Shown here piece by piece: positions 2,308 to 21,179 of a stretch of 21,179 nt of DNA. This DNA is from a virus: the IMG/VR virus record IMGVR_UViG_3300035698_016708, positions 1 through 21,179 of that record, one strand, 5' to 3'. Below the pieces are notes generated by a model that worked only from the letters and a program-made list of their open reading frames with translations, made no database searches and had not been told where the DNA came from. A program made the translations under genes and the position numbers. The stretch's first letter is position 1. Each line of letters opens with the position of its first letter.

Positions 2308-2529
2308 ATGTCAGTTGCAACAGGACTAGTTTTATTAGGTCTAAAGCTAAGTATGGGTTTATGTTGTGGCAATTTTTTATTATTAGGTCTTAGTTTTTAT
2401 TCCGCAGAAAGATGTTGGGATAATAAAAACAATGCAGAAGAATTAAATAAAGATGAAAATAAAAGAGAAATAGGATGGTTTGAGAGAAAAATAGTAAAAT
2501 ATGTTTTATTTCATGTAGTAGTCGTGTAG
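2308..2529 (+). CDS. Possible small membrane protein
   Basis: 73 residues. Residues 3-30 are hydrophobic (TGLVLLGLKLSMGLCCGNFL and onward) and would form one or two membrane spans; the rest is a charged Asn/Glu/Lys-rich tail. There is no clear Shine-Dalgarno before ATG 2308, and the last 24 bases overlap the 3' end of the convergent integrase gene, so the C-terminal VVV may be accidental. It continues the plus-strand run of small genes. Function unknown. Confidence 0.4.
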   Translation: MSVATGLVLLGLKLSMGLCCGNFLLLGLSFYSAERCWDNKNNAEELNKDENKREIGWFERKIVKYVLFHVVVV

Positions 2530-3816
2530 TTTGTCGGCCACTATAACCATTTTACGGGCTTGGACATCGACATATTTCATTCTTTGTCCTTTTATAGTGT
2601 GGCCGATGAGACATAAAATTAAATCTGGATTGACTTCTCCCCATATTCCTGAAGTTGCACTATCTCTTAAGTGCTTGAAAGTAATTTTTGTTGTTTCTTC
2701 TACAAGTTCTAGATCAGGCTCATTATTTTGTAGTTCTTTTTCTCTTATTACTGCTAATATTTTATCCTTGAAATGGTCCTGAACTAATTTACTTTTTAAT
2801 TGCCCACCGTGCTTATTAAGAAAAATATATTCAGATGTATCTGGACTAGTTATTAATAGTTTATCTAATGCTTCTTTTGTTTCTTGCCATAAAATGGCTA
2901 CTCTAGGTTTGCCATTTTTTTCTCTGTTGAAATTACTATAAAAGTGCCCGTTATCTTTGCCTATCATATTTTTTTTGAACCCTTCAACGTCTTTTCCATA
3001 AAATGCTAAATTCATAGCACAATGTAATATAGCATTCCATTTTACATCATTTTTTACTACTGCTAGTATTCTTTTATATAGTTTAGGTGTAAGTGCTTTT
3101 GCCTTTTCTAGGTTATCATCTTTGTTGTATCCTTTTAATATATTGCAGTATTCAAGAATTTTAATTATATCATCTTTATTCTTTTTGCTATTATCTCTAT
3201 GGCACTTAAAAACTGTTTTTACCCTTTGAAATTTACCTACAATCCAGGTATTACTCCATCCATTTTTTTCATATTCATTTACTACTACTATTTTATATTT
3301 CTCAATATCATCATCTGTAATTTGTCTTAAAGTTGTTTTTCCTATTACCTTACAAAAATATTTCCAGTTATTTACAACTCTGCTTTTTTCTTCTTTGTCA
3401 TTCTTTTTACTCATTTCCAGATAAAAATTTATCAACTGTTCTAAGGGTATATCACTGTCTGGTGTTTTTATATTATGAAGGTGGGCTAGTTCAGGAATGC
3501 CACACAATTGAGCACATTCTATAGGATTTTCAGCCATCATATTAACAAATTGGATAGCTATCCATTCTTTATCAACTTGATCAATTTGTGAAGTAGCAGT
3601 AGTGATAGGTTGTCTCTCACTATCCCATTTTCTGAATTTAACAACTGCTCTATTAAATTCAGTTCCAAAAGATGTGGGTGTTTTCATATTATACTGTCTC
3701 CAGTGGGATGGGTAATAAATCCCATCCCCTCTCACAGAAAGTCCTTCTATGGGTTTTCCATTTATATCTTCGCAATATATGGGTGGTCTGCCTCTAGTTC
3801 TTCTTTTTTTATTCAT
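2506..3816 (-). CDS. Tyrosine recombinase/integrase 2 (box I arginine apparently missing)
   Basis: 436 residues from ATG 3816, chosen because GGAG lies nine bases upstream; an upstream in-frame TTG (3831) has no such site and overlaps the preceding gene. The N-terminal region has the G-I-Y-Y-P-S-H and F-R-K-W elements shared with its neighbour, a SAM-like/core-binding domain follows (about residues 120-215), and the catalytic domain is C-terminal. Box II reads KHLRDS (Arg about 384), with GH at 405-406 and the likely nucleophile Tyr at about 415 (MKYVDV). Where the first catalytic Arg is expected, the sequence is AFYGKDV (272-278), with Lys or Gly instead. It follows integrase 1 by four bases in the same operon. 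Either a diverged active enzyme or a regulatory/partner subunit. Confidence 0.85.
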   Translation of the reverse strand: MNKKRRTRGRPPIYCEDINGKPIEGLSVRGDGIYYPSHWRQYNMKTPTSFGTEFNRAVVKFRKWDSERQPITTATSQIDQVDKEWIAIQFVNMMAENPIECAQLCGIPELAHLHNIKTPDSDIPLEQLINFYLEMSKKNDKEEKSRVVNNWKYFCKVIGKTTLRQITDDDIEKYKIVVVNEYEKNGWSNTWIVGKFQRVKTVFKCHRDNSKKNKDDIIKILEYCNILKGYNKDDNLEKAKALTPKLYKRILAVVKNDVKWNAILHCAMNLAFYGKDVEGFKKNMIGKDNGHFYSNFNREKNGKPRVAILWQETKEALDKLLITSPDTSEYIFLNKHGGQLKSKLVQDHFKDKILAVIREKELQNNEPDLELVEETTKITFKHLRDSATSGIWGEVNPDLILCLIGHTIKGQRMKYVDVQARKMVIVADKLHDYYMK

Positions 3817-3820
3817 TTTA

Positions 3821-5317
3821 TTATTCTCCAAAAATTATTTCTTCTAATAATTTGCAAGCTTTTAGTGTTGCTTTTGGGGAACGGGCAAAATAATTATTAT
3901 CAAGACCTTTTATATCGTGCCCCAAAATTATATTTACAGGAATTTGTAATTCAGGTTGTTCTTCAAGAATTAAAGTTTCTGTAGTATCCCTCAAATTCTC
4001 AAAATTATAATTTATATTTTCTTCTGATTTTACTTTTTGCCACCAGTTATATATGGGTCTTCTTTTTAATTGCTTGCCTTTATAATCACAAAATAAGAAT
4101 TCTGATTTTATACCTATTTCGGTTCTTTCATTTAGCATTGCTTCAAGTGCTTCAACCGTCCGATCCCAAAGAACACAAGCTCTTATAGTTCCACCATTTT
4201 TTTGTTTTGTTTTGTGTCTGATTTTTTGTAGTGTTTTATTTTTAAAATCTATTTCATCTAATTTAGTATCAAGTAGGCAAGTATGCCTGAACCCCCCATT
4301 TAAAGACAATAAAAATACTGCTTTCATAGTTTTATTATCAGTGTTTTTAAGTATATTTTTTATTACACGAGGTGGTATTTTTACAGGTTTTGGTTTTGGT
4401 TTTTTAACAAATTCAAAATCTAAACACCATTTAGCCACTTCAAGCAATGCTTTTATATCATTTTTATCTTTTAATTGTTTTGGCTTATTTGTAAAAAGTT
4501 TTTTAACTACAGAAAACCGACTATTTACATAGGCATAACTTCTATTGCCTTTTTTAGCATTTCTTTTTACATAGTCATTGTAGTTATGTATATGTTCTAT
4601 TTTTACTGCTCCAAGTGTTTTTATTTTTGAATAATTACAAAATTCATTCCAGTAAGATTTTAAATCGGCTATATATTGTTTCCCAAAATCATTATTTTTT
4701 ATATGCCAAGTTAAAAGGTCTTCCAATTTTATTTTAGAGTTATGATCTGGAGCATCTTGTATTGTGATGTTTAAATTTAAACATTTTCTTGCATTTACAA
4801 TATCATCTAAAATAAGCTTTCTTGCTTTTGCCCATATATACGCTTCAGGAATTAAAGTTTCTAATTTAATTTGAACATTTGGATTATTTATAAAATGATC
4901 TACTGAAGCAGGATCGGTATTAAATTTTATAGAATCAGGATGGTCTTCATCAAGTCCTATATCTTCATAGAATTGCTTGAAGAATGCTTTATCTGCATCA
5001 GTTAATTTTTGTGTTATATGTGCTTTTTTAGGTAAGTCATCAGGTTCTATTTTTAGAGCTACTTTTGTTTTTGCATTCTCCCATTGCCTAAAAAGAAATA
5101 TAGCCTGTTCATAATCTTTACCAAAGTTTATACGTTTTCCCCCCTGCTTGTATTCTTCTGTTTCTTTATATTTCGTAGGATAGTAATAGCCGTTCCCACT
5201 ATCCCACGATAGACCTACAATAGGATTATGTTTTTGATCATTCACATAATGTATCTTCCCTACTCTGGTTCTGCTGAACGGAGGTTTAACGTTTTTTCTT
5301 TTGTAGATTTTAGTCAT
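3821..5317 (-). CDS. Tyrosine recombinase/integrase 1
   Basis: 498 residues, ATG 5317 after AAGGAG (spacing 7). An N-terminal segment contains a basic start (KRKNVKPPFSRTRVGKIHYV), GNGYYYPTKY (41-50) and FLFRQWENA (74-82), probably the arm-binding part. A core-binding domain follows at about 190-290. The catalytic domain shows box I NGGFRHT (Arg344), a beta-hairpin Lys near 369-371, ENLRDT (Arg443; the usual His of HxLR is Glu), LGHD (His467) and the nucleophile Tyr476 (NNYFA). It would integrate the phage at the tRNA-derived core at 5446-5470. The gene starts next to attP, so it is probably controlled from sequences overlapping the P arm and may be autoregulated. The fold and motifs are clear; the core-site match is inferred. 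Confidence 0.92.
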   Translation of the reverse strand: MTKIYKRKNVKPPFSRTRVGKIHYVNDQKHNPIVGLSWDSGNGYYYPTKYKETEEYKQGGKRINFGKDYEQAIFLFRQWENAKTKVALKIEPDDLPKKAHITQKLTDADKAFFKQFYEDIGLDEDHPDSIKFNTDPASVDHFINNPNVQIKLETLIPEAYIWAKARKLILDDIVNARKCLNLNITIQDAPDHNSKIKLEDLLTWHIKNNDFGKQYIADLKSYWNEFCNYSKIKTLGAVKIEHIHNYNDYVKRNAKKGNRSYAYVNSRFSVVKKLFTNKPKQLKDKNDIKALLEVAKWCLDFEFVKKPKPKPVKIPPRVIKNILKNTDNKTMKAVFLLSLNGGFRHTCLLDTKLDEIDFKNKTLQKIRHKTKQKNGGTIRACVLWDRTVEALEAMLNERTEIGIKSEFLFCDYKGKQLKRRPIYNWWQKVKSEENINYNFENLRDTTETLILEEQPELQIPVNIILGHDIKGLDNNYFARSPKATLKACKLLEEIIFGE

Positions 5318-5345
5318 TTTTTTACTCCTTATTTGAGTAGTTATA

Positions 5346-5386
5346 TTCTACAAAAGGAGCAAACCAAGTTCTACCAGAAATTCTAC
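5346..5386 (+). repeat. attP P-arm: three TTCTAC motifs
   Basis: TTCTAC occurs at 5346-5351, 5369-5374 and 5381-5386, all in the same orientation, the last two exactly 12 bp apart; two read ATTCTACAAAA. These lie between integrase 1 and the tRNA-like core and look like integrase arm-type sites. A possible minus-strand -10 (TATAAT, 5402-5407) for the integrase operon lies just outside this arm on the core side. Confidence 0.65.
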
Positions 5387-5445
5387 AAAAAATAGGGTAA
5401 AATTATAAGTGCTTTATATGAAGTGGGTTATAAGAGAAAAAATAA

Positions 5446-5470
5446 TGGGCGATACTGGACTTGAACCAGT
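5446..5470 (-). other. attP: attP core: 3' end of a tRNA gene (T-arm plus acceptor strand)
   Basis: Read on the minus strand, these 25 bases give a perfect T-arm (ACTGG, loop TTCAAGT, CCAGT) followed by a 7-nt acceptor strand ATCGCCC and discriminator A. The rest of a tRNA is not present upstream. A tRNA 3' end beside an integrase is the standard core of a temperate phage attachment site. The expected 5' acceptor strand, GGGCGAT, is common in bacterial tRNA-Val genes, so that is my best guess for the host target. Phage-like TTCTAC arms on both sides indicate attP, not attL or attR. Confidence 0.8.
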
Positions 5471-5475
5471 TCTAC

Positions 5476-5505
5476 CCCCATTCATAGGCTTATAATGGGG
5501 TTTTT
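5476..5505 (+). terminator. Rho-independent terminator inside attP
   Basis: CCCCATT (5476-5482) pairs with AATGGGG (5494-5500) around an 11-nt loop and is followed by TTTTT (5501-5505). The stem plus T-run reads as a plus-strand terminator. After integration it would block transcription entering the accessory module from the attachment-site side. The stem begins one base after a TTCTAC motif, so it could also affect recombination-complex geometry. Confidence 0.6.
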
Positions 5506-5515
5506 ATAGGGCAAG

Positions 5516-5533
5516 TTCTACAGGATGTTCTAC
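5516..5533 (+). repeat. attP P'-arm: paired TTCTAC motifs
   Basis: TTCTACA at 5516-5522 and again at 5528-5534, starts exactly 12 bp apart, matching the 12-bp spacing of the pair at 5369/5381 on the other side of the core. A sixth copy (5470-5475) overlaps the core edge. The symmetry around the core supports integrase arm sites. Confidence 0.65.
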
Positions 5534-5616
5534 AGTAATATTTGTATATGTATGTTAATACATACATCTTACATACTCATCAAAATTACCATAAAATATT
5601 TTATTATTTTTTTTAT

Positions 5617-5645
5617 TTGACAGTAATTTAATTTCTTGATATTAT
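5617..5645 (+). promoter_or_regulatory. Sigma70-type promoter
   Basis: A perfect -35 TTGACA (5617-5622), a 17-bp spacer, and -10 TATTAT (5640-5645), in an A/T-rich context with a T-rich upstream stretch. It points to the methyltransferase gene starting at 5718 and lies after the terminator in attP. That suggests the accessory module is transcribed on its own, possibly also from the prophage. Confidence 0.75.
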
Positions 5646-5717
5646 ACCTATTGTTCTTTATTGTGAGGGAAGATATGCAAACGGCAAGTGCTTGCCATTT
5701 TCATATATAGAGGTTAT

Positions 5718-6886
5718 ATGAGTATGAAGAAAGACGATAGAGAACTTATACGGTCTATTAAAGAACTCCATAAACAAATTATTTCTGACTATAAACAATC
5801 TCTAAATCGGTGTATTCAACTAGGGAATATTTTAGATAAGCAAAAAATTAGAGTAGGACGGGGTAATTTTATGGAATGGGTGAAATCCTATTTACCATTT
5901 TCTGAATGATCTTCGAGAAATTATATGGCTTTGTTCCATCATAAAGCTGAGTTAAAAGCAGCAGAAATAGAAAATATAAAAGATGCGTATGCTTATATAT
6001 CTAATTTTAATGCCCACATTCGAGATGCTCACAGAACAAAAACTAAAGCATACAGAAAAGAAGAAGCAAATAAAGATACAAAATTTACTAACCCTAGAAC
6101 TTACATCAATAAAATTATTTGTGGGGATAATATAAACATTATGAATAAAATGTTACAGACTATGAAAGGTAGATATAGTGCTGTAATTTGCTCTCCAAAT
6201 TATAATACAGGATTTAATTATGGAGATATATTTGATGATAATAAAGATTATGATATTTATTTAAATGACCTATTAAAGCCATTTGAGTATTATAAAAAGT
6301 TATTAAGGGTAGGTGGTAGAGTTATTTATATTTTGGGGAATAATACAGGTGAAGATAATACAGGTGATAGGTATGAACTTGTAGCAGAACTATTAAATAG
6401 AGTTAAAATAGAACATCCTGAATTCAAGGTTTATAATATGATAATATGGGACAAAGGTAAGAAGGGGATGAACCCGTTGAATACTAAATTTGGTTCTTTT
6501 TGTTCTCCAATAGAACCATCAATGAGATTGAAACATGAGTATATTATTATATGGAGTTTAGAACAATATAAATTACCTAATATAAATAATGTAGTTTCAG
6601 ACATCTCCAAAAAAGAATTCAAAGAATGGACGTGGAGCACTTGGGAAATATCACCTTATGTCTTTCCAAAAAATATACATCCCTGCTCCTATCCTCCTAA
6701 ACTAATTGAAAGAATTTTGAAAATATATACTTACCCACAAGACCTAATTCTTGATCCTTATAGTGGGGCGGGCATCACAGGGTTAATGTGTAAAAAAATA
6801 AACGACAATATACGATGATAGATTTGAACCCTAATTTTTGTTCTTATGCAAAAAAGATAATAGATAAAGCAAGTAAGAATAAGTAG
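5718..6886 (+). pseudogene. DUF3102-like/beta-class DNA methyltransferase, interrupted by UGA and a frameshift
   Basis: Start at ATG 5718 (AGAGG four bases upstream; ATG 5724 is an alternative). The N-terminal 85 residues have a DUF3102-like pattern (RGNFMEWVKSYLPFSE, then SSRNYMALF), but an in-frame TGA at 5907-5909 separates these two pieces, where the family usually has Arg or a similar residue. The same frame resumes with a beta-class amino-methyltransferase: motif IV CSPNYNTGFNYG, then a G-S-F-C-S-P-x-x-P-S-M-R-L-K segment, then the AdoMet-binding DPYSGAGITG. Near 6808 one base appears lost: frame 1 ends ...KKINDN, and the next frame supplies the expected tail YTMIDLNPNFCSYAKKII to a stop at 6884-6886. 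It would methylate C-N4 or A-N6. A restart at ATG 5925 could make a protein without the N-terminal domain, ending out of frame at 6818. Confidence 0.75.
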
Positions 6887-7023
6887 TTATGTAAATTATA
6901 AAAAATAATATATTTTCCGGCTGGGCACGGCTATTGATATAGTTCATAATAGTTAAAGTAATTAGGTGATGTGTAATAAGTTGTATTTTTTGCCAAAGTA
7001 GTAATATTTTAAGGAGAGTAGTT

Positions 7024-7380
7024 ATGAGAAATATAATTATAAGTAATTGGAATATAAGATTTAAGAATAATGATGATGATATAATTCTTATAGATGTTAT
7101 TTTTAGGTTTGGAAATATTTCAATAATAGAGAACTTAGACATAGATATAGGAAATTCCAAAGAGGCTAATATTAAAATATGTGATATTATAAAAATAGAA
7201 AGACTTACAGTAAATGATGATGATTTTAACTTTATACTGGAAGAAGAAACTATTACGGGAAAACCAGCTGCTGTATATGGTGAAATATTTATATGGGGAA
7301 TAAATAACTATAATAAAATAAATCATATACCTATTCCTTTAAGCGATATAAATGAAATGGAATTAATAACGAGTCTGTAA
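7024..7380 (+). CDS. Unknown protein of the accessory module
   Basis: 118 residues, ATG 7024 after TAAGGAGAG (spacing about 6). Acidic and rich in Ile, Asn and Asp (NNDDDIILIDVIFRFG near the start), it is predicted to be mostly beta strands, with no membrane span or signal peptide. I recognise no family. It lies between two methyltransferase genes and ends eight bases before the next one, so it is probably co-transcribed with them. The 137-base gap upstream contains a short GC-rich patch (about 6916-6931) and no clear promoter. Confidence 0.7.
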   Translation: MRNIIISNWNIRFKNNDDDIILIDVIFRFGNISIIENLDIDIGNSKEANIKICDIIKIERLTVNDDDFNFILEEETITGKPAAVYGEIFIWGINNYNKINHIPIPLSDINEMELITSL

Positions 7381-7388
7381 AATAAATA

Positions 7389-8462
7389 ATGCCACCAGCA
7401 CTATCAACAACAAAAAATCCTTTTTGGAATAATAAAAAGAATAGCACTATATATACTCCTACATACATATCAGAGTTTATATATGAAATTATATCTCCTG
7501 TGCTGAAACCTAAAGTAATTCTTGATCCTGCTATTGGTAAAGGTTCTTTAATTCTCCCCTGGAAAAAAAGTAAAATAATAGGAGTTGATATAGATGTTAA
7601 AAGTAAAAAGTATTGTGATTATTTTCACAAGGGAAAATTTGAGAATATAGAGAATTGGAAATTTCCTGTTCCTGATTTAATAGTTTGTAATCCACCATGA
7701 AATTCTGCTGAAGGAAAAAAACTATATCCAGAAGTATTTATAAAACAAATGGTAAATTTATTTGGTTCTAAAATACCTATATTATTATTTACTCCTATGG
7801 GTTTTAGACTAAATCAGAAAAAAACTAGTAAAAGGTATCAATGGTTAATTTATAGTGAAATAGAAATATCAACTATTATTAGTTTGCCTTTAGATGCTTT
7901 TGGTTTTACTACTACACAAAGTGAAATTTTACTATTTAATATACCTGAATTAAAACCACACTACTGGATATATAATAAAGAAGAACTTGTAAAACAAAAA
8001 CTAATTACAAAGACGCAACAAAAAGGAAAAAACAAAATGGCTAAACAAAAAAACGAAATTACTATTGATGGAGAAACTTATATTCTCAAAAGTTCTGTTG
8101 CAGGAATAGATGTAGCAGCACTGAAAAAGAAATTTACTGCATACTGGAACACTTGCGAAAAGGCAGAAACACTACTTGCAGAAATAAATAATATTATTTC
8201 TGGGGAAAAATCAGAAACAACAAAAACAACAGACAAAGAAAAAAAAGATTATCCAACAAAAAAAAATAGAAATGGGATGGTTGTGATGATAATACTAAAA
8301 TCAGCAAAAAAACCAATGACAAAAAATGAAGTAGAATTTGAACTAAAAAAGAATAAAACTATAAATGCTAATTCGGCGAAACAACAACTTGATCATTTCA
8401 ATTGTTTTGTAATTACAAAAGAAGGAAATAAAAACTTATATTCATATAAGAAAGTAGAATAA
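7389..8462 (+). pseudogene. Gamma-class N6-adenine methyltransferase with UGA at the catalytic Trp
   Basis: One reading frame interrupted only by TGA at 7698-7700. The first part has S-T-I-Y-T-P-T-Y-I-S (residues 19-28), typical of Eco57I/type I-like methyltransferases before motif I, then the AdoMet-binding ILDPAIGKGSL and VDID. Motif IV reads DLIVCNPP-TGA-NSAEGKK, where the family has NPPW/F/Y; TGA falls exactly at the aromatic residue that stacks on the target adenine. The frame continues with plausible methyltransferase sequence (LPLDAFGFTTTQSEILLFN). Order motif I then IV marks the gamma class. No RBS is obvious before ATG 7389. At the 3' end the frame runs without a stop into a separate-looking domain starting at 8037. 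It is either a dead gene or one needing UGA read-through as Trp. Confidence 0.75.
8037..8462 (+). CDS. Possible separately translated winged-helix-like protein
   Basis: In frame with the methyltransferase upstream, but an ATG at 8037 preceded by AAAAGG about 10 bases earlier suggests its own start (141 residues, MAKQKNEITIDGETYILKSS). Residues 1-55 contain a helical segment (ALKKKFTAYWNTCEKAETLL), then a Lys/Thr-rich linker, then residues 80-141 with a winged-helix-like pattern (MVVMIILKSAKKPMTKNEVE, then YSYKKVE). A methyltransferase stop may have been lost: CAA at 8018-8020, just before this RBS, is one base from TAA. It could be the specificity/DNA-binding partner of the methyltransferase or a regulator. 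Function not established. Confidence 0.5.
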   Translation: MAKQKNEITIDGETYILKSSVAGIDVAALKKKFTAYWNTCEKAETLLAEINNIISGEKSETTKTTDKEKKDYPTKKNRNGMVVMIILKSAKKPMTKNEVEFELKKNKTINANSAKQQLDHFNCFVITKEGNKNLYSYKKVE

Positions 8463-8486
8463 AACATAATATATATTTAACTACTC

Positions 8487-8518
8487 TGCCCCTGTCATTT
8501 TATTAAGTGATGGGGGCA
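8487..8518 (+). terminator. Possible terminator after the methyltransferase gene
   Basis: TGCCCCTGTCA (8487-8497) pairs with TGATGGGGGCA (8508-8518) as an 11-bp RNA stem with two G-U wobbles and a 10-nt loop. It is only weakly T-rich afterwards (ATTTT at 8522-8526). It lies between the methyltransferase stop and the zinc-ribbon gene, so it may attenuate or separate their expression. Confidence 0.45.
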
Positions 8519-8542
8519 CAACATTTTAAAAAGGATAATAAA

Positions 8543-8854
8543 ATGATCTATTTTAATTGCTATACTTGTAATGAAGGCATGGAAGCACCTGAAAGTTTAG
8601 CAGATAGTTCTATAGAATGTCCTAACTGTAAAGGTCTTCAACATATTCCTTCTCCCCCCAAAAAGAAAAATAGAAAACCTAAAAGAATAATACTTAATCC
8701 GGTTAAAAATACTATATCACCTCCCCCACAAAAAATAATTATAAAACAAAGTTCAGGTTGTATAGGTTGTCTTTTAATAATTATTATATTACTTTTAATT
8801 TTAGGTCCGCTTACTGCTGGTGGTTGTTGTATATTACCATTTTTAGCAATTTAA
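8543..8854 (+). CDS. Zinc-ribbon single-pass membrane protein
   Basis: 103 residues. ATG 8543 is chosen because AAAGGATAA lies upstream; an in-frame ATG at 8507 is inside the preceding hairpin. Residues 1-35 form a zinc ribbon with two Cys pairs (CYTC at 6-9 and CPNC about 20 residues later) and the sequence EAPESLADSSIECPNC, a pattern I associate with short zinc-ribbon domains common in Planctomycetes and related bacteria. A Pro/Lys-rich linker (about 38-75) follows, then a Cys-containing hydrophobic segment (SGCIGCLLIIIILLLILGPL) and a second hydrophobic stretch. The zinc ribbon would face the cytoplasm. Role unknown; its place at the end of the accessory module suggests cargo, not virion structure. 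Confidence 0.75.
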   Translation: MIYFNCYTCNEGMEAPESLADSSIECPNCKGLQHIPSPPKKKNRKPKRIILNPVKNTISPPPQKIIIKQSSGCIGCLLIIIILLLILGPLTAGGCCILPFLAI

Positions 8855-8944
8855 TATATTATAACGTAGTTTTATTTGCTCTCACAACTCACACAAGGCC
8901 CCAGGATCAATTAAAATATTTTCCAAGGGCAAAACTACCCTATA

Positions 8945-8976
8945 TAATACAAAAGAGATAGGGCCTAAGCCCTATC
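8945..8976 (-). terminator. Terminator of the late operon
   Basis: GATAGGGC (8957-8964), loop CTAA, GCCCTATC (8969-8976): a perfect 8-bp GC-containing stem. On the minus strand it is followed by TCTTTTGTATTATA, a short U-rich tract. It lies about 130 bases past the last late gene and is the best candidate for the end of late transcription. Confidence 0.6.
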
Positions 8977-8993
8977 CCTCACAGGAGATGTTG

Positions 8994-9020
8994 GTATATG
9001 GTAACAAAAAAACCATATAC
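8994..9020. repeat. Perfect 9-bp inverted repeat
   Basis: GTATATGGT (8994-9002) and ACCATATAC (9012-9020) flank an A-rich 9-nt loop. There is no T-run after either arm. It sits between the late operon terminator and the last late gene, in the 250-base convergent intergenic stretch that otherwise contains nothing I can call. It may be an RNA-processing or 3'-stabilising hairpin. Confidence 0.45.
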
Positions 9021-12121: not shown

Positions 12122-13720
12122 TTATGGACAACAACTCCCATCATAAGTAGTCCAAGTTAATGTAGTCAATCCGTTAAAGGTAAGGTCTATTAGGACACCT
12201 GGAAATTCAATCGGGCATGAGAGAGTTTCACCTCCGGGATTAAAAATCCAACCGTCCCAGCACAAACCATTTATCAATTCCATTTCAGCATTTTCTCCAA
12301 TTATCAAATATACATAGCCGTGTTCACCACAATTTTCTACTCCTCTGTATGTGCAATCGCTTATTTTTTCCATCACTACATTGCCACAATCTTCATCTCC
12401 CTCAATAGTTACATTCATACAAAACGTGTCAGGGAAAAGACAACAACAATTTGCACAAGTATCTGAACTACTTGAACTAGAACTTAAACTAGAACTTGAA
12501 CTACTTAAACTACTACTTATACTACTTGAACTTGAACTACTTACACTACTTGAACTTGAACTTATACTACTACTTGAACTACTTAGACTACTACTACTTG
12601 AACTACTTATAGAACTTGAACTTGAACTTAAACTACTACTTGAACTATCACTACTTGAACTACTCATACTTGAACTTGAACTACTTAATTTACTTGAAGC
12701 AGATGAAGTGCTTGAAGTGCTTGAAGTGCTTGAAGTGCTTGAAGTGCTTGAGCTACTAACTGAACTGCTTGAACTACTCAAACTTGAACTTATACTACTT
12801 GAACTTGAACTACTTATACTAGAGCTTGAACTACTTAAACTGCTACTACTTGAACTTAAACTGCTTGAGCTTGAACTACTTAAACTGCTACTGCTTGAAC
12901 TTATACTACTTGAACTTGAACTAACACTACTTGAACTACTACTAATAGAACTGCTTGAACTACTACTGATAGAACTACTTGAAGAACTAACACTACTTGA
13001 ACTGCTTGAACTTAAACTACTTGAACTACTTGAACTTATACTACTTGAACTTATACTACTTGAACTACTTGAACTTATACTACTTGAACTTGAACTGTCA
13101 GGAATATCATCCCAATGCTTATCAACAAGTACACTCGGATTTACATCTACATACGGAACATCAGGGATTGGATTACAACTTACAATTGCGTCAGGAACTT
13201 CAATACTTGGATTTTCTATTAAATTACAACCTATATTACTGTGATACGCCCAATTGGTGCAGGGTGGACAACCTCCATTATAGTCAGAAGAACTCCATAA
13301 CATTGCGAAACTTTTGGTCCCTGCTTCTAAATACCACGCATCAAAATTTCCATTCCCATCTTCTGCACAATAAATATAAAAATATTGTGCTTCACAAAAA
13401 GGTTCGCAAAAGTCCCAATTCGGGATAAAATGAGCTACCCAAACGCAACTTTCTCCAGTATCTGGCTTCCATATATCACGTCGCAATTCAAAATTCCCAC
13501 CTCTCTCAAATTCGTCAGGAGGAGGAAGATAACCTCCAAGAACCCAACAATCACCCATCCATCCTTCAGGTTCAAAACTAACCCAAAGGGAGTTCTGACA
13601 TTTGCCGCAATTAGTACAAATTTCACAACAACAATCATTATCCATTGCTATTACTTTTCCTAGTGAGGGATTTGTATTAGTGAATAATATTTTACCATTA
13701 TAGAATTGGATATTGCCCAT
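12122..13720 (-). CDS. Cys-rich protein with about 210-residue serine-repeat linker
   Basis: 532 residues. Residues 1-208 are a Cys- and Trp-rich domain (CCCEICTNCGKC at 30-41, further Cys pairs at 104-108 and 151-154). Residues 209-419 are almost pure Ser with periodic Ile, Leu or Val every 6-8 residues and a short (SST)n section. Residues 420-532 are a second Cys-rich domain (DTCANCCCLF ... TYDGSCCP). The layout is two folded ends joined by a long flexible linker, as in surface appendages; it probably sits at the tail tip or fibre. The start is uncertain: the Shine-Dalgarno AGGAG lies about 14 bases from ATG 13720, and the frame is continuous with the preceding gene except for one TGA (13724-13726). 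It may be produced partly by read-through. Confidence 0.75.
   Translation of the reverse strand: MGNIQFYNGKILFTNTNPSLGKVIAMDNDCCCEICTNCGKCQNSLWVSFEPEGWMGDCWVLGGYLPPPDEFERGGNFELRRDIWKPDTGESCVWVAHFIPNWDFCEPFCEAQYFYIYCAEDGNGNFDAWYLEAGTKSFAMLWSSSDYNGGCPPCTNWAYHSNIGCNLIENPSIEVPDAIVSCNPIPDVPYVDVNPSVLVDKHWDDIPDSSSSSSISSSSSSSISSSSISSSSSSSLSSSSSSSVSSSSSSISSSSSSSISSSSSSVSSSSSSISSSSSSLSSSSSSSLSSSSSSLSSSSSSISSSSSSSISSSLSSSSSSVSSSSTSSTSSTSSTSSTSSASSKLSSSSSSMSSSSSDSSSSSLSSSSSSISSSSSSSLSSSSSSISSSSSSVSSSSSSSISSSLSSSSSSLSSSSSSSDTCANCCCLFPDTFCMNVTIEGDEDCGNVVMEKISDCTYRGVENCGEHGYVYLIIGENAEMELINGLCWDGWIFNPGGETLSCPIEFPGVLIDLTFNGLTTLTWTTYDGSCCP
12464..13096 (-). repeat. Serine-codon low-complexity repeat tract
   Basis: About 630 bases built from degenerate TCA/AGT/TCT/AGC serine codons, in units like TTCAAGTAGTTCAAGT, with Ile, Leu or Val codons interspersed. 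Near 12704-12750 there is an exact tandem of GAAGTGCTT (plus-strand reading), about five copies. Such DNA can change length by slippage or recombination, and it closely resembles the tract at 20797-21179. Confidence 0.85.
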
Positions 13721-13723
13721 AGA

Positions 13724-14299
13724 TCAACAATTATCTCCTGTATGAACAGTACTCCAATCACTCTCATCAGCAGTTCCCATAACCTCAATTTCTATAGTTT
13801 TCTTCTCTAATCTGCTGTTAGCAGTATCAACTCTATAATTAGTTTGAACAGTAATTTTAGTTACTGGAACTGGAGTCCAATTTATGAACCATTCGCCATT
13901 AATTCGTACTATTGAAATATAATCACCTTCTTTTATTTTCGGTCTATAATTACCCATATCAAAAGAAGTACTTTCGCCCCAGTTTGTTATAACATCAAAT
14001 GGTTCTCCTACGCTTGGATTTTTATCCGCATCGACTTGTACAACTTGTAAAAGACCATCTGTAGTTCCATCCTCTAATGCCATTGCTCTTTTTATTTGTT
14101 GAAAATTACCGCCAGAATGAACAGTTGTTTTTTCCCCTCTTTTAATTATTAAATGACGGCCTGATAGTGTATTCTTAACAGCCACATCTCCAGTGAATTT
14201 TGATTTTAATAACCAGTTAATTTTATCAACCAATTCATTATAACTTTTTTTTGTGATTATATTAGTCGTTCTTAATTTTTTAATTGGAAAATTATTCAA
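13724..14299 (-). CDS. Tail-tip-region protein of unknown function
   Basis: 191 residues. I place the start at TTG 14299: GTGGAG lies seven bases upstream and the start overlaps the preceding stop (TTGAATAA); the frame also extends to a TTG at 14347 without a better signal. The N-terminus is basic and helical (LRTTNIITKKSYNELVDKIN), then a beta-rich body (KNTLSGRHLIIKRGEKTTVH; INGEWFINWTPVPVTKITVQ). Ends ...DWSTVHTGDNC at TGA. In planctomycete-type phage modules such proteins lie between tape measure and fibres, but I know no function. It is in frame with the Ser-rich gene that follows, separated only by TGA TCT. Confidence 0.7.
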   Translation of the reverse strand: MNNFPIKKLRTTNIITKKSYNELVDKINWLLKSKFTGDVAVKNTLSGRHLIIKRGEKTTVHSGGNFQQIKRAMALEDGTTDGLLQVVQVDADKNPSVGEPFDVITNWGESTSFDMGNYRPKIKEGDYISIVRINGEWFINWTPVPVTKITVQTNYRVDTANSRLEKKTIEIEVMGTADESDWSTVHTGDNC

Positions 14300-15305
14300 G
14301 CATCCACTCCACTTTTTCGCCTGCTGTTTTTTGGTCCATACCTTCAAACAAATCTCTGAAACTAACTGAACTATAATAATCTATATCTATAAATCTATCA
14401 TCACCTACTCCAGCAGGATTAACAACTTCGATGTTCCAATCGGAAACTATATCTGATATGCCATGATCAGGTTTGTGAGTAAGATAAAATTCGTATTGAA
14501 AAACACTAGGCTTTATTTCTGAATAATCACAATCGACTAAAAGCCATTGCCCTATATCGTCTGCTGCTGTTTCTGTGAAATCTAAATCAGGTGCATTTTG
14601 TGCTCTATCTTTTTCGATCCGAGCCAGCTTGATTTTTTGCCAAAACCAGAATAAAAAGTTATCACTATTGACTTTACCTAAATTAAGTCTTATTCTATCA
14701 ATTAAAAGTTGAGAACTATATGTAGTTATAATTGCTGCAAAGTTTGATGTATGTAAATTTAATGGACGAATTTCAATTGACTCCCACACTTCTAAAGCAA
14801 GTTTGTAATCGCTGTTATCTACTCCTACATTACCATTATCATCTGCTGTAGAATAAGTAGCAGGATCAGGATATGTTCCACCATTTTTAGTTCTATAGAT
14901 GGTAGTCCAGTTGTTAAGAGTTCCTGTTGTAATATCTCTCCATTCATTCACTTCAAAAGTATCGTCTTCTGATAGAAATTTTATTTTCCAGCTACTTGCT
15001 TTATCTACTTCTTCGTCCGGGAAGAGTCTATCAGTTTCTGAGCTATAAAAAGCATTAACTTGATACATCCATATTTTTTCAGTTCCTTCAAAAGCATTTA
15101 TTCGGTCAACAGCCACACTAGTACAGAACATATCATTTCTAAAAATACTTGGTTCTCCTGTTTCTGGTAAAAAAACATAATTATTATTATTATCTAATCC
15201 CCCCCAGGCTACTAAATCATCATAATTACATTTCCACATTCGTTCCATCGTGGAGCCTCTAGCAGTTTTTTTATATTTCCAACTTAGAAAATCTTCTGAA
15301 ATCAC
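14292..15305 (-). CDS. Large tail-tip/baseplate candidate, unknown family
   Basis: 337 residues from GTG 15305, preceded by GGAG (spacing about 10). Rich in Trp, Asp and Asn, no membrane span; segments such as MERMWKCNYDDLVAWGGL (20-37), NAFYSSETDRLFPDEEVD and NFLFWFWQKIKLARIEKDRA suggest a mixed alpha/beta structural protein. It directly follows the tape measure gene, the position of the distal tail/tail-tip proteins in siphoviruses, and overlaps the next gene's start by eight bases. No Dit/Tal signature was recognisable, so the call is positional. Confidence 0.7.
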   Translation of the reverse strand: MISEDFLSWKYKKTARGSTMERMWKCNYDDLVAWGGLDNNNNYVFLPETGEPSIFRNDMFCTSVAVDRINAFEGTEKIWMYQVNAFYSSETDRLFPDEEVDKASSWKIKFLSEDDTFEVNEWRDITTGTLNNWTTIYRTKNGGTYPDPATYSTADDNGNVGVDNSDYKLALEVWESIEIRPLNLHTSNFAAIITTYSSQLLIDRIRLNLGKVNSDNFLFWFWQKIKLARIEKDRAQNAPDLDFTETAADDIGQWLLVDCDYSEIKPSVFQYEFYLTHKPDHGISDIVSDWNIEVVNPAGVGDDRFIDIDYYSSVSFRDLFEGMDQKTAGEKVEWMLE

Positions 15306-16578: not shown

Positions 16579-16884
16579 TTACTTAATACCTAATTTATCT
16601 TTGTAGCTATTCCACTCTTTAATTTTATCTTGTTCTTTTTTTGGCAGCATTGTTTGAATAGCAAATAATGCTGCTTTACCTTCTAAAGGTTTTGAACTTT
16701 TAATTGGTCCTGATATATTTTTATTTTCGGGAGAAATATCAACTTTCTTTCCTGCTTCTATTCTCATAATATTTTGTGCTTCTTCAAAATAAAGAGTAAA
16801 TTCAGAAGGTGTTAAATCACGAACTTGATATTTATCCCATTTAAAATATTTGAATAATAATACAACGGCTAATGATAATCTCAC
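16579..16884 (-). CDS. Tail assembly chaperone, frameshift extension (gpT-like)
   Basis: 101 codons from an unconvincing GTG (16884). The frame stays open upstream to the A7 slippery run at 16908-16914, adding IIKAIGDP, so the real product is probably a fusion with the preceding gene, as in lambda gpG-gpT. The protein begins with a hydrophobic helix (RLSLAVVLLFKYFKWDKYQV), continues with LTPSEFTLYFEEAQNIMRIE, a disordered Lys/Ser/Pro part and a Lys-rich end. It ends directly before the tape measure start. It would bind the tape measure protein during tail assembly. Confidence 0.75.
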   Translation of the reverse strand: MRLSLAVVLLFKYFKWDKYQVRDLTPSEFTLYFEEAQNIMRIEAGKKVDISPENKNISGPIKSSKPLEGKAALFAIQTMLPKKEQDKIKEWNSYKDKLGIK

Positions 16885-16904
16885 AGGATCACCAATAGCC
16901 TTTA

Positions 16905-17297
16905 TTATTTTTTTGAGTCTTCCTCATTTTCCAAACCAATAATATTTTGAATTAAAATTGTATCTTTAACATCAACTATATTTTTAACTTCTTCAAAAGA
17001 AATATTATTATGTATTTTTAACACACTCCATAGTAAAAACAACACACCATTTATAGAATTTATTATTTCCTCTCTTTCTTCTATAGTTGTCTTTATTTTT
17101 GCATAAGTATATATATCTTCATTACTTAATTCTTTTACTTGTTTAGCTGCTAAAATGATATTATTTCTTTTATTCTCATCACACCATAATTCAAAATCTG
17201 CCATAGTTCCCATAGTTATTTTACCAACAGTAAATATTCTACCGCTTATTTCTACCTCTCTAGTTCCACCTAAAATATCACTCACTCTTTCACTCAT
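16905..17297 (-). CDS. Tail assembly chaperone (gpG-like)
   Basis: 130 residues, ATG 17297 preceded by AGGAG (spacing about 7). The N-terminus VSDILGGTREVEISGRIFTV then LWCDENKRNNIILAAKQVKE is the pattern of gpG/tail-chaperone families (short beta strands followed by helices). It ends at EEDSKK-stop on an A AAA AAA run, permitting -1 frameshifting into the downstream frame to make a gpGT-like protein of about 239 residues. Location between tail tube and tape measure genes is the conserved position. Family assignment is from context, pattern and the slippery site. Confidence 0.8.
   Translation of the reverse strand: MSERVSDILGGTREVEISGRIFTVGKITMGTMADFELWCDENKRNNIILAAKQVKELSNEDIYTYAKIKTTIEEREEIINSINGVLFLLWSVLKIHNNISFEEVKNIVDVKDTILIQNIIGLENEEDSKK
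16908..16914 (-). promoter_or_regulatory. Programmed -1 ribosomal frameshift site (A AAA AAA)
   Basis: A run of seven A on the minus strand gives the heptamer A-AAA-AAA in the zero frame, directly before the TAA of the gpG-like gene. After a -1 slip, codons AAA ATA ATA AAG GCT ... continue without a stop into the gpT-like frame to 16579. Frameshifting between tail chaperone genes is widely conserved in long-tailed phages. I did not identify a convincing downstream pseudoknot. Confidence 0.75.
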
Positions 17298-17345: not shown

Positions 17346-17804
17346 TTATAAGGCTGGATCAGTTGTCGCCCATGCCAACGCTCCATTTCCTATCAAATTA
17401 TAAGTAACTGTAGGAATTCCGTTAATATCCTGATCAATATTAAAATTAGAGCAGACACAACTACCATATACAATTGCTACATTACCTGCCCCACCACTAT
17501 CGTCTAGGTAAAGTTCTGCTTTAATTTCTGTTTCTTCTCCAATCGCATCAACTCCCCATCCTGCCGCTAAAGTAATGTCTAAACCGGTCGTTTTGAGATA
17601 AGCTGTTGCGCTGCAATCCCAGTCCTGTAGTCCGCCTATGTATTCAGCCGCATCACTTGTAGAACTCATACTAGTAATGTCTTTAACTTCCTGCTTAATA
17701 TTTGCTGACCATTGTGTTAAATGTGCAATTGTCACATTAGTTCCAGCAGCATCCCAAATCAATTTACCATCCATACCTGTAAGGGTTGTATTTTGTGTTC
17801 CCAT
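17346..17804 (-). CDS. Tail tube protein paralogue 3
   Basis: 152 residues, ATG 17804 after AAAGGAT (spacing about 6). It shows the pattern shared by its two upstream neighbours: an opening with Gly-rich turns (MDGKLIWDAAGTNVTIAHLT), W-S-A-N-I-x-x-E-V-x-D-I-T-S-M, a central G-G-L-x-x-W-D-C-S-A-x-A-Y-L, and a terminal pair of strands ending G-N-G-A-L-A-W. This is a beta-sandwich layout of major tail proteins, which stack as hexamers to form the tail tube. It is the longest of the three, with an insertion around residues 70-110 (AELYLDDSGGAGNVAIVYGS). Confidence 0.75.
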   Translation of the reverse strand: MGTQNTTLTGMDGKLIWDAAGTNVTIAHLTQWSANIKQEVKDITSMSSTSDAAEYIGGLQDWDCSATAYLKTTGLDITLAAGWGVDAIGEETEIKAELYLDDSGGAGNVAIVYGSCVCSNFNIDQDINGIPTVTYNLIGNGALAWATTDPAL

Positions 17805-17818
17805 TTTTTATCCTTTAA

Positions 17819-18223
17819 TTAGGTTGTATATGCTTGTTCTGCGAGTGCCCCAGTCCCTGTAAAACTATAATTTACTCTTACTTCATCATCTTTTGAAACT
17901 GTGGGAGAAATAGAATTTACAATTGCAGTTCCTGTCCATTCTCTAAATGACTCGTCAACAGCACCAGCCCGTAAGTCTAAAGTTGCCCCAGCACTAGCTG
18001 CCAAATCGGTTGTGATATCTGGATCAAAAGTACCACTAAATAAACATTCGACCTCGGCATTCCACCTAGTTATTCCTGGTGCTTTATCTCTGTATGTATT
18101 TGTCATTATAGAGGAGTCCCTAACATCGCAAGTTTTTGTTAGTGTAAAACTAACTACATTTGCAATTGCTGTTCCTGCTCCTGCTCCAAATGAGGCTGAT
18201 CCATTTTTTCCTGTAATTGGCAT
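17819..18223 (-). CDS. Tail tube protein paralogue 2
   Basis: 134 residues, ATG 18223 after AAAGGAT. It matches the common scaffold: MPITGKNGSASFGAGAGTAI, V-V-S-F-T-L-T-x-T-C-D-V-x-D-S-S-I-M, T-Y-R-D-K-A-P-G-I-x-x-W-N-A-E-V-E-C-L-F, and the ending SPTVSKDDEVRVNYSFTGTG-A-L. Of the three it looks most like standard major tail proteins. Spacing to the neighbours is 14-22 bases, so all three are on one transcript. Which of the three is the main tube subunit cannot be decided from sequence alone. Confidence 0.75.
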   Translation of the reverse strand: MPITGKNGSASFGAGAGTAIANVVSFTLTKTCDVRDSSIMTNTYRDKAPGITRWNAEVECLFSGTFDPDITTDLAASAGATLDLRAGAVDESFREWTGTAIVNSISPTVSKDDEVRVNYSFTGTGALAEQAYTT

Positions 18224-18245
18224 ATTATTTATCCTTTATGTTATG

Positions 18246-18605
18246 TTATGTTTGTCCTAGTGTATTCGTTCCTTCAAATTGAACTGATGAAGTACTTATT
18301 CCTTCTAGCCCTTGAGTAACGGAAATTGAACTACATAGTGCCGACCCTGCATAAGTAATACCTCCACCTGTGTCAATTGTAAGTGTTTGCGTTGTTGATA
18401 CAGCATCAGTCCCTATCCCTGCTTTTGGGGTGAGCAACTCCGCTGATGCAGTCCAGTTTTTTAGGCCCGTTAGCCTAGTTCTATAAGTTGAACCTTGTGT
18501 TGTGCTATCCGTTACATCTGCATCACCACTAATGTTCCAAGATATAAGTTCTACCGTAATTCCTGAAAAAGTTAAACTTCCCCCGTGTCCTGAAAAAGTT
18601 GCCAT
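18246..18605 (-). CDS. Tail tube protein paralogue 1
   Basis: 119 residues, ATG 18605 preceded by GAGGAG. The same scaffold in its shortest form: FSGHGGSLTFSGITVELISW, N-I-S-G-D-A-D-V-T-D-S-T-T, T-Y-R-T-R-L-T-G-L-K-N-W-T-A-S-A-E-L, then VTQGLEGISTSSVQFEGTNT-L. It is the first of the triplet and directly follows the tail completion gene. It may be the initiating or terminating tube ring, a tube paralogue of different copy number, or a decorated subunit; this is inference. Confidence 0.75.
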   Translation of the reverse strand: MATFSGHGGSLTFSGITVELISWNISGDADVTDSTTQGSTYRTRLTGLKNWTASAELLTPKAGIGTDAVSTTQTLTIDTGGGITYAGSALCSSISVTQGLEGISTSSVQFEGTNTLGQT

Positions 18606-19855: not shown

Positions 19856-20731
19856 TTATCCTGCTAGAGCAAATAGTCTATATCTTGCCAATATATTTTT
19901 TTGTTCTTCATTTATTTTGTTTAGAGTTAAGTTCGTCGAATATTCTAAATCCCCTTCTTTTATTTTTTGTAGGGAATTATCTCTTTTAGAAGAATTATAT
20001 AATACACTACAAAATTCTATACATAACCCCTGCAAATCATTAGGAATAATATTCATGCCTCCATTATAACTTATTTGATAGTTCTGATTTCCCTTTGTAA
20101 AAATAGAATTCATAAATATAGTTCCACTTTCAGAATAATAAATATAATAGTCAGAATTGATAGTAGTCCAACCATTCACAGCACTTCCACAACTAATTGA
20201 AGTAATACTGTTAATAGGAATTTGTTTGACAGTCAAATATTGTGTTGATGTTCCGTCTATGAATTCTTCATAATCATTTTCAAAAAAGTTTCTGTTGCAC
20301 CACTTTGAAATTCTATCAGTCATTATATCAATACAAAGAGATAACAACGCATCATTAGTAGTATCGCTTGGATTATCTGCTAAATGTAAAAATGCTTTTA
20401 AATCTGATAAAGAACATAATCTATTACCAGTCGCAGATAAAGTTGAACCTCCTTCAGTGAAAGTTGTGGTATTGATGGTAAAATGCTGGGGGACTGCATC
20501 AGTATGTGTAAATAAAAGTCCCAGTGTTTCAGCGTTTACTTCTTCCGCAGTCAAATCAATAGAATATTGACCATTCCCTTTATGAACAGCAGAATTAGTT
20601 AATGAGGCCTGTGTTCCATCATCTTTAGTAATGTGACAATTTACTGTTCCAGAAGTGATAGCACTACCAGTATTTTTATTTACAAGTGCAAATGTAAATC
20701 CATCAATCGCTAAATTTTTAGTATATGACAT
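19856..20731 (-). CDS. Head-tail connector (gp6-like) with N-terminal Ig/carbohydrate-binding-like domain
   Basis: 291 residues, ATG 20731 after AAGGA. Residues 105-285 are a gp6-like connector: LCSLSDLKAFLHLADNPSDT (phage QLRG/gp6 pattern), CIDIMTDRISKWCNRNF, then a beta section Y-L-T-V-K-Q-I-P-I-N-S-I-T-S-I and a final helix. Residues 1-95 are an extra beta-sandwich (GFTFALVNKNTGSAITSGTV, HKGNGQYSIDLTAEEVNAET, GLLFTHTDAVPQHFTINT) like the BppU/Ig-type domains found on phage surface proteins. gp6-type connectors are usually about 100-190 residues, so the fusion explains the size. The connector ring sits under the portal, and the extra domain could protrude outside the capsid neck. Confidence 0.82.
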   Translation of the reverse strand: MSYTKNLAIDGFTFALVNKNTGSAITSGTVNCHITKDDGTQASLTNSAVHKGNGQYSIDLTAEEVNAETLGLLFTHTDAVPQHFTINTTTFTEGGSTLSATGNRLCSLSDLKAFLHLADNPSDTTNDALLSLCIDIMTDRISKWCNRNFFENDYEEFIDGTSTQYLTVKQIPINSITSISCGSAVNGWTTINSDYYIYYSESGTIFMNSIFTKGNQNYQISYNGGMNIIPNDLQGLCIEFCSVLYNSSKRDNSLQKIKEGDLEYSTNLTLNKINEEQKNILARYRLFALAG

Positions 20732-20742
20732 TTTAATATTCC

Positions 20743-21179
20743 TTATTCGTAAAGATAATTTACTTTAACCCACCAAGGCTTGAATGCAGGTGCGTCGCTT
20801 GAACTACTACTGCTTATAGAACTTGAACTTGAACTAATAGAACTACTTGAACTTGAACTACTTATAGAACTTGAACTACTTGAAGAACTTAAGCTACTTG
20901 AACTCGAAGAGCTAACAGAACTTGAACTTGAACTTATTGAACTACTTGAACTTGAACTTATACTACTTGAACTAGAACTTATTGAACTGCTACTTGAAGA
21001 ACTTACAGAACTACTACTTGAAGAACTCACAGAACTACTACTTGAAGAACTTAAACTACTTGAACTACTACTCAAACTACTTGAACTAGAACTTATTGAA
21101 CTACTTGAACTACTACTTATTGAACTACTTGAACTCACAGAACTACTACTTGAAGAACTTAAACTACTTGAACTACTAC
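20743..21179 (-). CDS. C-terminal part of a serine-rich virion-associated protein (5' end outside window)
   Basis: 145 codons visible; the frame stays open to the right edge, so the true start is outside the window. Everything up to about position 20797 is Ser with single Ile, Leu or Val every 6-8 residues; the final 17 residues are DAPAFKPWWVKVNYLYE. The gene sits upstream of the connector, where capsid, decoration or capsid-fibre genes lie. The C-terminal Trp pair could dock the flexible chain on the head or neck. Composition strongly resembles the linker of the protein at 12122-13720. Confidence 0.7.
   Translation of the reverse strand, partial: SSSSSLSSSSSSSVSSSSSISSSSSSSISSSSSSLSSSSSSLSSSSSSSVSSSSSSSVSSSSSSSISSSSSSISSSSSSSISSSSSSVSSSSSSSLSSSSSSSSISSSSSSSSISSSSSSISSSSSSDAPAFKPWWVKVNYLYE
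20797..21179 (-). repeat. Serine-codon low-complexity repeat tract 2
   Basis: About 380 bases of the same degenerate serine-codon pattern as at 12464-13096 (units like TCAAGTAGTAGTTCT). It continues to the window edge. Two long, near-identical, same-strand tracts about 7.7 kb apart could recombine or misassemble. Confidence 0.8.

Follow-up and report, generated by a model that had tools for sequence, protein, structure and literature searches.

An in-frame TGA at motif IV of a phage adenine methyltransferase gene and its probable origin in gene decay

Phages commonly acquire orphan methyltransferases and lose them again, so a decayed accessory methyltransferase is an ordinary thing to encounter in a phage genome. 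The family that concerns us here consists of Lau218 gp04 (YP_009042135.1) from a podophage, a series of further IMG/VR loci (L003–L011) and a gene of Terasakiella pusilla (L012). In an enzyme of the NPPW type that has been studied, motif IV proved critical for activity (PMC10050889). In Escherichia coli, stop codons are misread at a level of about 0.4–2% – TGA most of all, and slightly more with A following – and both the Trp and the Cys tRNAs are near-cognate to UGA (PMC10959953).

The window analysed here is the entire IMG/VR virus record IMGVR_UViG_3300035698_016708, a single metagenome contig of 21,179 bases without replicates. An earlier note on this sequence had drawn attention to the frame at 7389–8462, in which a TGA replaces the catalytic aromatic residue of an adenine methyltransferase, and both its coordinates and its description hold on re-reading. 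The sole internal stop of the frame is a TGA at 7698–7700 (codon 104), which comes straight after AAT CCA CCA (NPP) and is followed by A; motif IV (7689–7700, plus strand) therefore reads NPP-stop, where the homologs found read NPPF. The TGA does fall on the aromatic position of the motif, occupied by F in the aligned homologs, and a Trp in its place would indeed complete the motif, NPPW being a valid version of it (PMC10050889). The observation is thus correct, and its explanation is most likely an ordinary one.

The interrupted gene, MTase2, occupies 7389–7979 on the plus strand, and its assignment as an N6-adenine-type DNA methyltransferase gene draws on a match to the phrog_799 DNA methyltransferase (E 1.3e-7), on homology to Lau218 gp04 (about 41% identity over residues 16–192), on the family alignment and on a structure model. 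The homology to the Lau218 gp04-like methyltransferases spans the whole catalytic domain, and the alignment places a motif I-like DPAIGKG, for AdoMet binding, at 7524–7544 (plus strand). The pieces before and after the TGA hit one and the same set of homologs, over adjoining residues and in a common register – with E values down to 8e-25 and 2e-35, respectively, against a small fetched set – and ten homologous loci, representing eight distinct sequences, are colinear across the TGA without loss of register. The 90 codons after the TGA are conserved at least as well as those before it, and codon usage remains as gene-like past the TGA (0.21 bits per codon) as ahead of it (0.19), with negative values for the other two frames of that strand. 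As both flanks match the same homologs, and as the probability of 93 random codons staying open at the local composition is about 5e-4, the open and homologous frame past the TGA represents more than chance.

That the frame stays methyltransferase-like beyond the stop is nonetheless true only up to a point: the homology runs out at about codon 194 (about 7970–7976), the homologs themselves ending soon after HY at codon 192, and the remainder looks like a separate protein. An open reading frame for 141 residues at 8037–8462 (plus strand), in the same frame as MTase2, comes with an ATG of its own and a ribosome site of the AAGGA type, is gene-like in its codons (0.33 bits per codon), has no counterpart among the MTase2 homologs and matches only weakly a PHROG of unknown function (phrog_5588). 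Judged from these features, it probably encodes a separate protein that happens to share the MTase2 frame.

A structure model of MTase2, built with W at the TGA position (pLDDT 76.6), is predicted to adopt the class I AdoMet methyltransferase fold. It superposes on M.TaqI (2adm_A; Z 10.7, rmsd 3.6 over 161 residues) and on M.BseCI (7qw8_B; Z 10.3, rmsd 3.8 over 163 residues), although rRNA adenine methyltransferases fit it equally well (1qan; Z 10.7, rmsd 3.3 over 152 residues); a PDB sequence search gave no match. Homology and predicted fold together make membership of the adenine amino-methyltransferase family well supported. The motif order, I then IV, fits the gamma class of N6-adenine methyltransferases named in the earlier note; the gamma class in its strict sense is not well supported, because no target-recognition domain is seen in this family of 190-residue proteins. 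Under the standard code, MTase2 lacks a complete motif IV ([DNS]PP[YFW]) – ending instead in NPP-stop – and it is, unless UGA is read through, a broken member of the Lau218 gp04-like N6-adenine-type methyltransferases.

All ten of the fetched homologous loci (again eight distinct sequences) have NPPF at the TGA position, with the codon TTC. Trp occurs there in no family member found, and Cys occurs in none of the homologs; the pattern used to collect the relatives would miss an NPPY variant. Nor does a TGA stand at motif IV in any of the relatives found, very close ones not being among them: scans of viral contigs with MTase2, with MTase1 and with the regions 14292–15305 and 13292–14347 returned no close relatives, a DNA-level search of phages with 5400–9000 had no match, and neither had a plasmid search. 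A search with the tape measure gene led to one distant phage, and MTase2 is absent from the examined stretch of it. A scan of viral contigs for NPP-TGR-N gave 11 matches, none of them in the MTase2 family. Since the relatives found carry F (TTC), a single-step change from TGG to TGA presupposes an ancestor that has not been observed, and the TGG ancestor proposed earlier is thus unsupported; from TTC or TTT, TGA is two changes away.

How UGA is read in this phage can be judged from its other genes. Nineteen trusted genes contain 77 TGG codons and no internal TGA (97 TGG when all genes are counted), even though comparable two-fold codon pairs are A-ending in 83% of cases – a proportion that would be expected here too if both codons meant Trp – which argues that UGA is not a Trp codon. 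Two genes terminate with TGA within ATGA overlaps, and the 21-kb record, which is a partial phage record, contains no tRNA genes and hence no tRNA-Trp with a UCA anticodon. The evidence says that UGA is a stop codon in this phage. Code 4 was rejected on the codon counts, and a selenocysteine codon or a stimulatory hairpin was likewise rejected: no fold 3′ of the UGA is better than shuffles (z 0.55), and the homologs lack Cys.

A further TGA, at 13724–13726 (minus strand), parts two structural open reading frames that share a frame, namely 13724–14347 and a poly-Ser one at 12122–13720. A third read-through gene was considered here and rejected, the ATG of the next frame lying two codons on and similar same-frame arrangements of a stop and then an ATG occurring at 19858, 16581 and 12124; this TGA is probably a genuine stop rather than the site of a readthrough fusion. 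No homolog that would decide the matter was found.

Just upstream of MTase2 lies a second methyltransferase gene, MTase1 (5718–6886, plus strand), with a DUF3102-like part and an N6_N4_Mtase domain (PF01555, E 8.9e-24; PF11300, E 0.0014, the latter under its cut-off). It carries an in-frame TGA at 5907–5909 (plus strand), inside the DUF3102-like part, at a position where 12 relatives have R (six), S (five) or Q (one), and never W. At 6816–6818 (plus strand) it is frameshifted, reading NDNIR and then TGA TAG where the relatives have YIGID or similar residues; IDLNPNFCSYAKKIIDKASKNK goes on in another frame from 6818, and IDLNPNFCSYAKKIIDK likewise runs on there. Its catalytic motif is SPNY, as against SPPY or DPPY in six viral homologs. 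By its sequence – the TGA, the frameshift and SPNY – MTase1 is a pseudogene. On another phage contig (L006:2247–3658, minus strand), the gene immediately after an intact MTase2 homolog encodes an N6_N4-type methyltransferase whose motif is an unusual DPPD; a neighbourhood of two methyltransferase genes is thus seen more than once.

Both genes stand beside a probable attP at 5345–5534, which contains a piece resembling the 3′ end of a tRNA (5446–5470, minus strand), with TTCTACA-type repeats to either side of that piece, and adjoins two tandem tyrosine recombinase genes (2506–5317). An attP with arm sites to its left and right would point to a molecule in phage form rather than to a cryptic prophage. 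Accessory genes next to attP are commonly gained and lost.

The tail genes lie on the other side of the two methyltransferase genes. Among the genes on the minus strand, three consecutive ones at 17346–18605 match the major tail protein phrog_1407, and two of the pairs share about 28–29% identity, so these genes may form a family of tail-protein genes. At the end of 16905–17297, an AAAAAAA joins that frame to the −1 frame of 16579–16884, upstream of the tape measure gene, and the whole (16579–17297) resembles the tail assembly chaperone genes of other phages with their programmed −1 frameshift. Two long poly-serine stretches, at 12122–13720 and 20743–21177 (both minus strand), are interrupted at intervals of six or seven residues by one I, L or V (SSSSSSISSSSSS).

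The earlier note had left a choice between a nonsense mutation, a base-call error and a UGA read as Trp. A simple nonsense mutation is the best explanation among these, minus the TGG ancestor and the UGA-as-Trp setting: with a probability of about 0.72, MTase2 is an ordinary accessory gene in decay, with a genuine nonsense codon in place of the one for its catalytic aromatic residue. On this account, a temperate tailed phage would have carried MTase2 as an orphan accessory N6-adenine-type DNA methyltransferase, which then gained the nonsense codon; with UGA acting as a stop, translation would mostly give a 103-residue product that retains motif I and NPP and is missing the rest of the fold, and such a fragment should be inactive. 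As UGA-A is leaky and near-cognate to tRNA-Trp, traces of intact NPPW enzyme may arise even so – of the order of 1%, if the host behaves as E. coli does. Decay is favoured by the broken state of the adjacent MTase1, and as MTase2 sits with it in an accessory block, selection for methylation appears to be relaxed in this phage. Because the gene is otherwise well preserved – it keeps 30 of the 35 family-invariant columns, and its four departures besides the TGA are all mild (G to S, L to I, R to K and S to T) – the lesion would be relatively recent. Two points count against decay: what has been kept past the TGA, in sequence as in codon usage, fits a gene still in use as well, so that either a recent lesion or continued use would account for it, and the F codon of the relatives lies two changes from TGA.

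An error of consensus or assembly, or a minority-strain variant, with the population genome carrying a sense codon at this place, is an unlikely explanation, yet it has several points in its favour: the record is one unreplicated contig, MTase2 looks otherwise intact, and the frameshift in the adjacent MTase1 is what error-prone sequence would also produce. Against it, the remaining tail and integrase genes keep open frames throughout, so that the errors would need to be concentrated in two accessory genes lying side by side, and MTase1 also has a substitution, SPNY, to be accounted for.

Functional readthrough, in which the stop would be kept and a near-cognate tRNA-Trp would restore NPPW at a low rate, limiting a methyltransferase needed in few copies, strikes us as improbable. 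Trp would give a valid motif here, an A after UGA makes for leaky termination, and the part after the TGA is well preserved; however, none of the relatives found has the TGA, the RNA offers no stimulatory structure, and the adjoining MTase1 is plainly decayed. We give little credence to the more specific idea that the UGA serves as a throttle, the tRNA-Trp regenerating NPPW in about one of 100 translations and so setting a trace, host-dependent level of methyltransferase. A selected role for UGA readthrough in MTase2 is possible but unsupported, and we found no literature on a UGA inside a phage methyltransferase motif. Only if the UGA proved to be conserved would the finding matter, as the catalytic residue would then come from the misreading of a stop codon.

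A setting in which UGA means Trp to the phage or its host, through code 4 or a suppressor tRNA, is very improbable indeed: several genes do run on in frame past a TGA, and under code 4 the apparent TGA stops in the window would yield at most a short extension or a fusion, but the normal use of TGG, the ATGA overlaps, the relatives without Trp at the MTase1 TGA position and – partial as the record is – the lack of a tRNA gene leave one escape alone, namely that the phage has moved to a code-4 host very recently. Our preferred reading of MTase2 as a decaying gene carries a general caution, namely that an in-frame TGA at a motif position should not be taken as evidence of recoding if the gene alongside is broken and TGG is used in the normal way.

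Set beside known systems, MTase2 most resembles the small methyltransferases of its own family, Lau218 gp04, L003–L011 and L012, with which it shares 36–44% identity over about 190 residues, motifs I and IV, and colinearity through the TGA; these relatives have NPPF in an open frame, whereas MTase2 has a TGA at the F position and a second protein in the same frame. With M.TaqI and M.BseCI, the comparison extends to the catalytic domain, on which the MTase2 model superposes, but not to a target-recognition domain, none being seen in MTase2. Its likeness to the leaky readthrough of UGA by tRNA-Trp in E. coli (PMC10959953) lies in the A that follows the UGA and in the expected Trp, which would restore the motif, whereas here nothing indicates that readthrough occurs, is conserved or is used.
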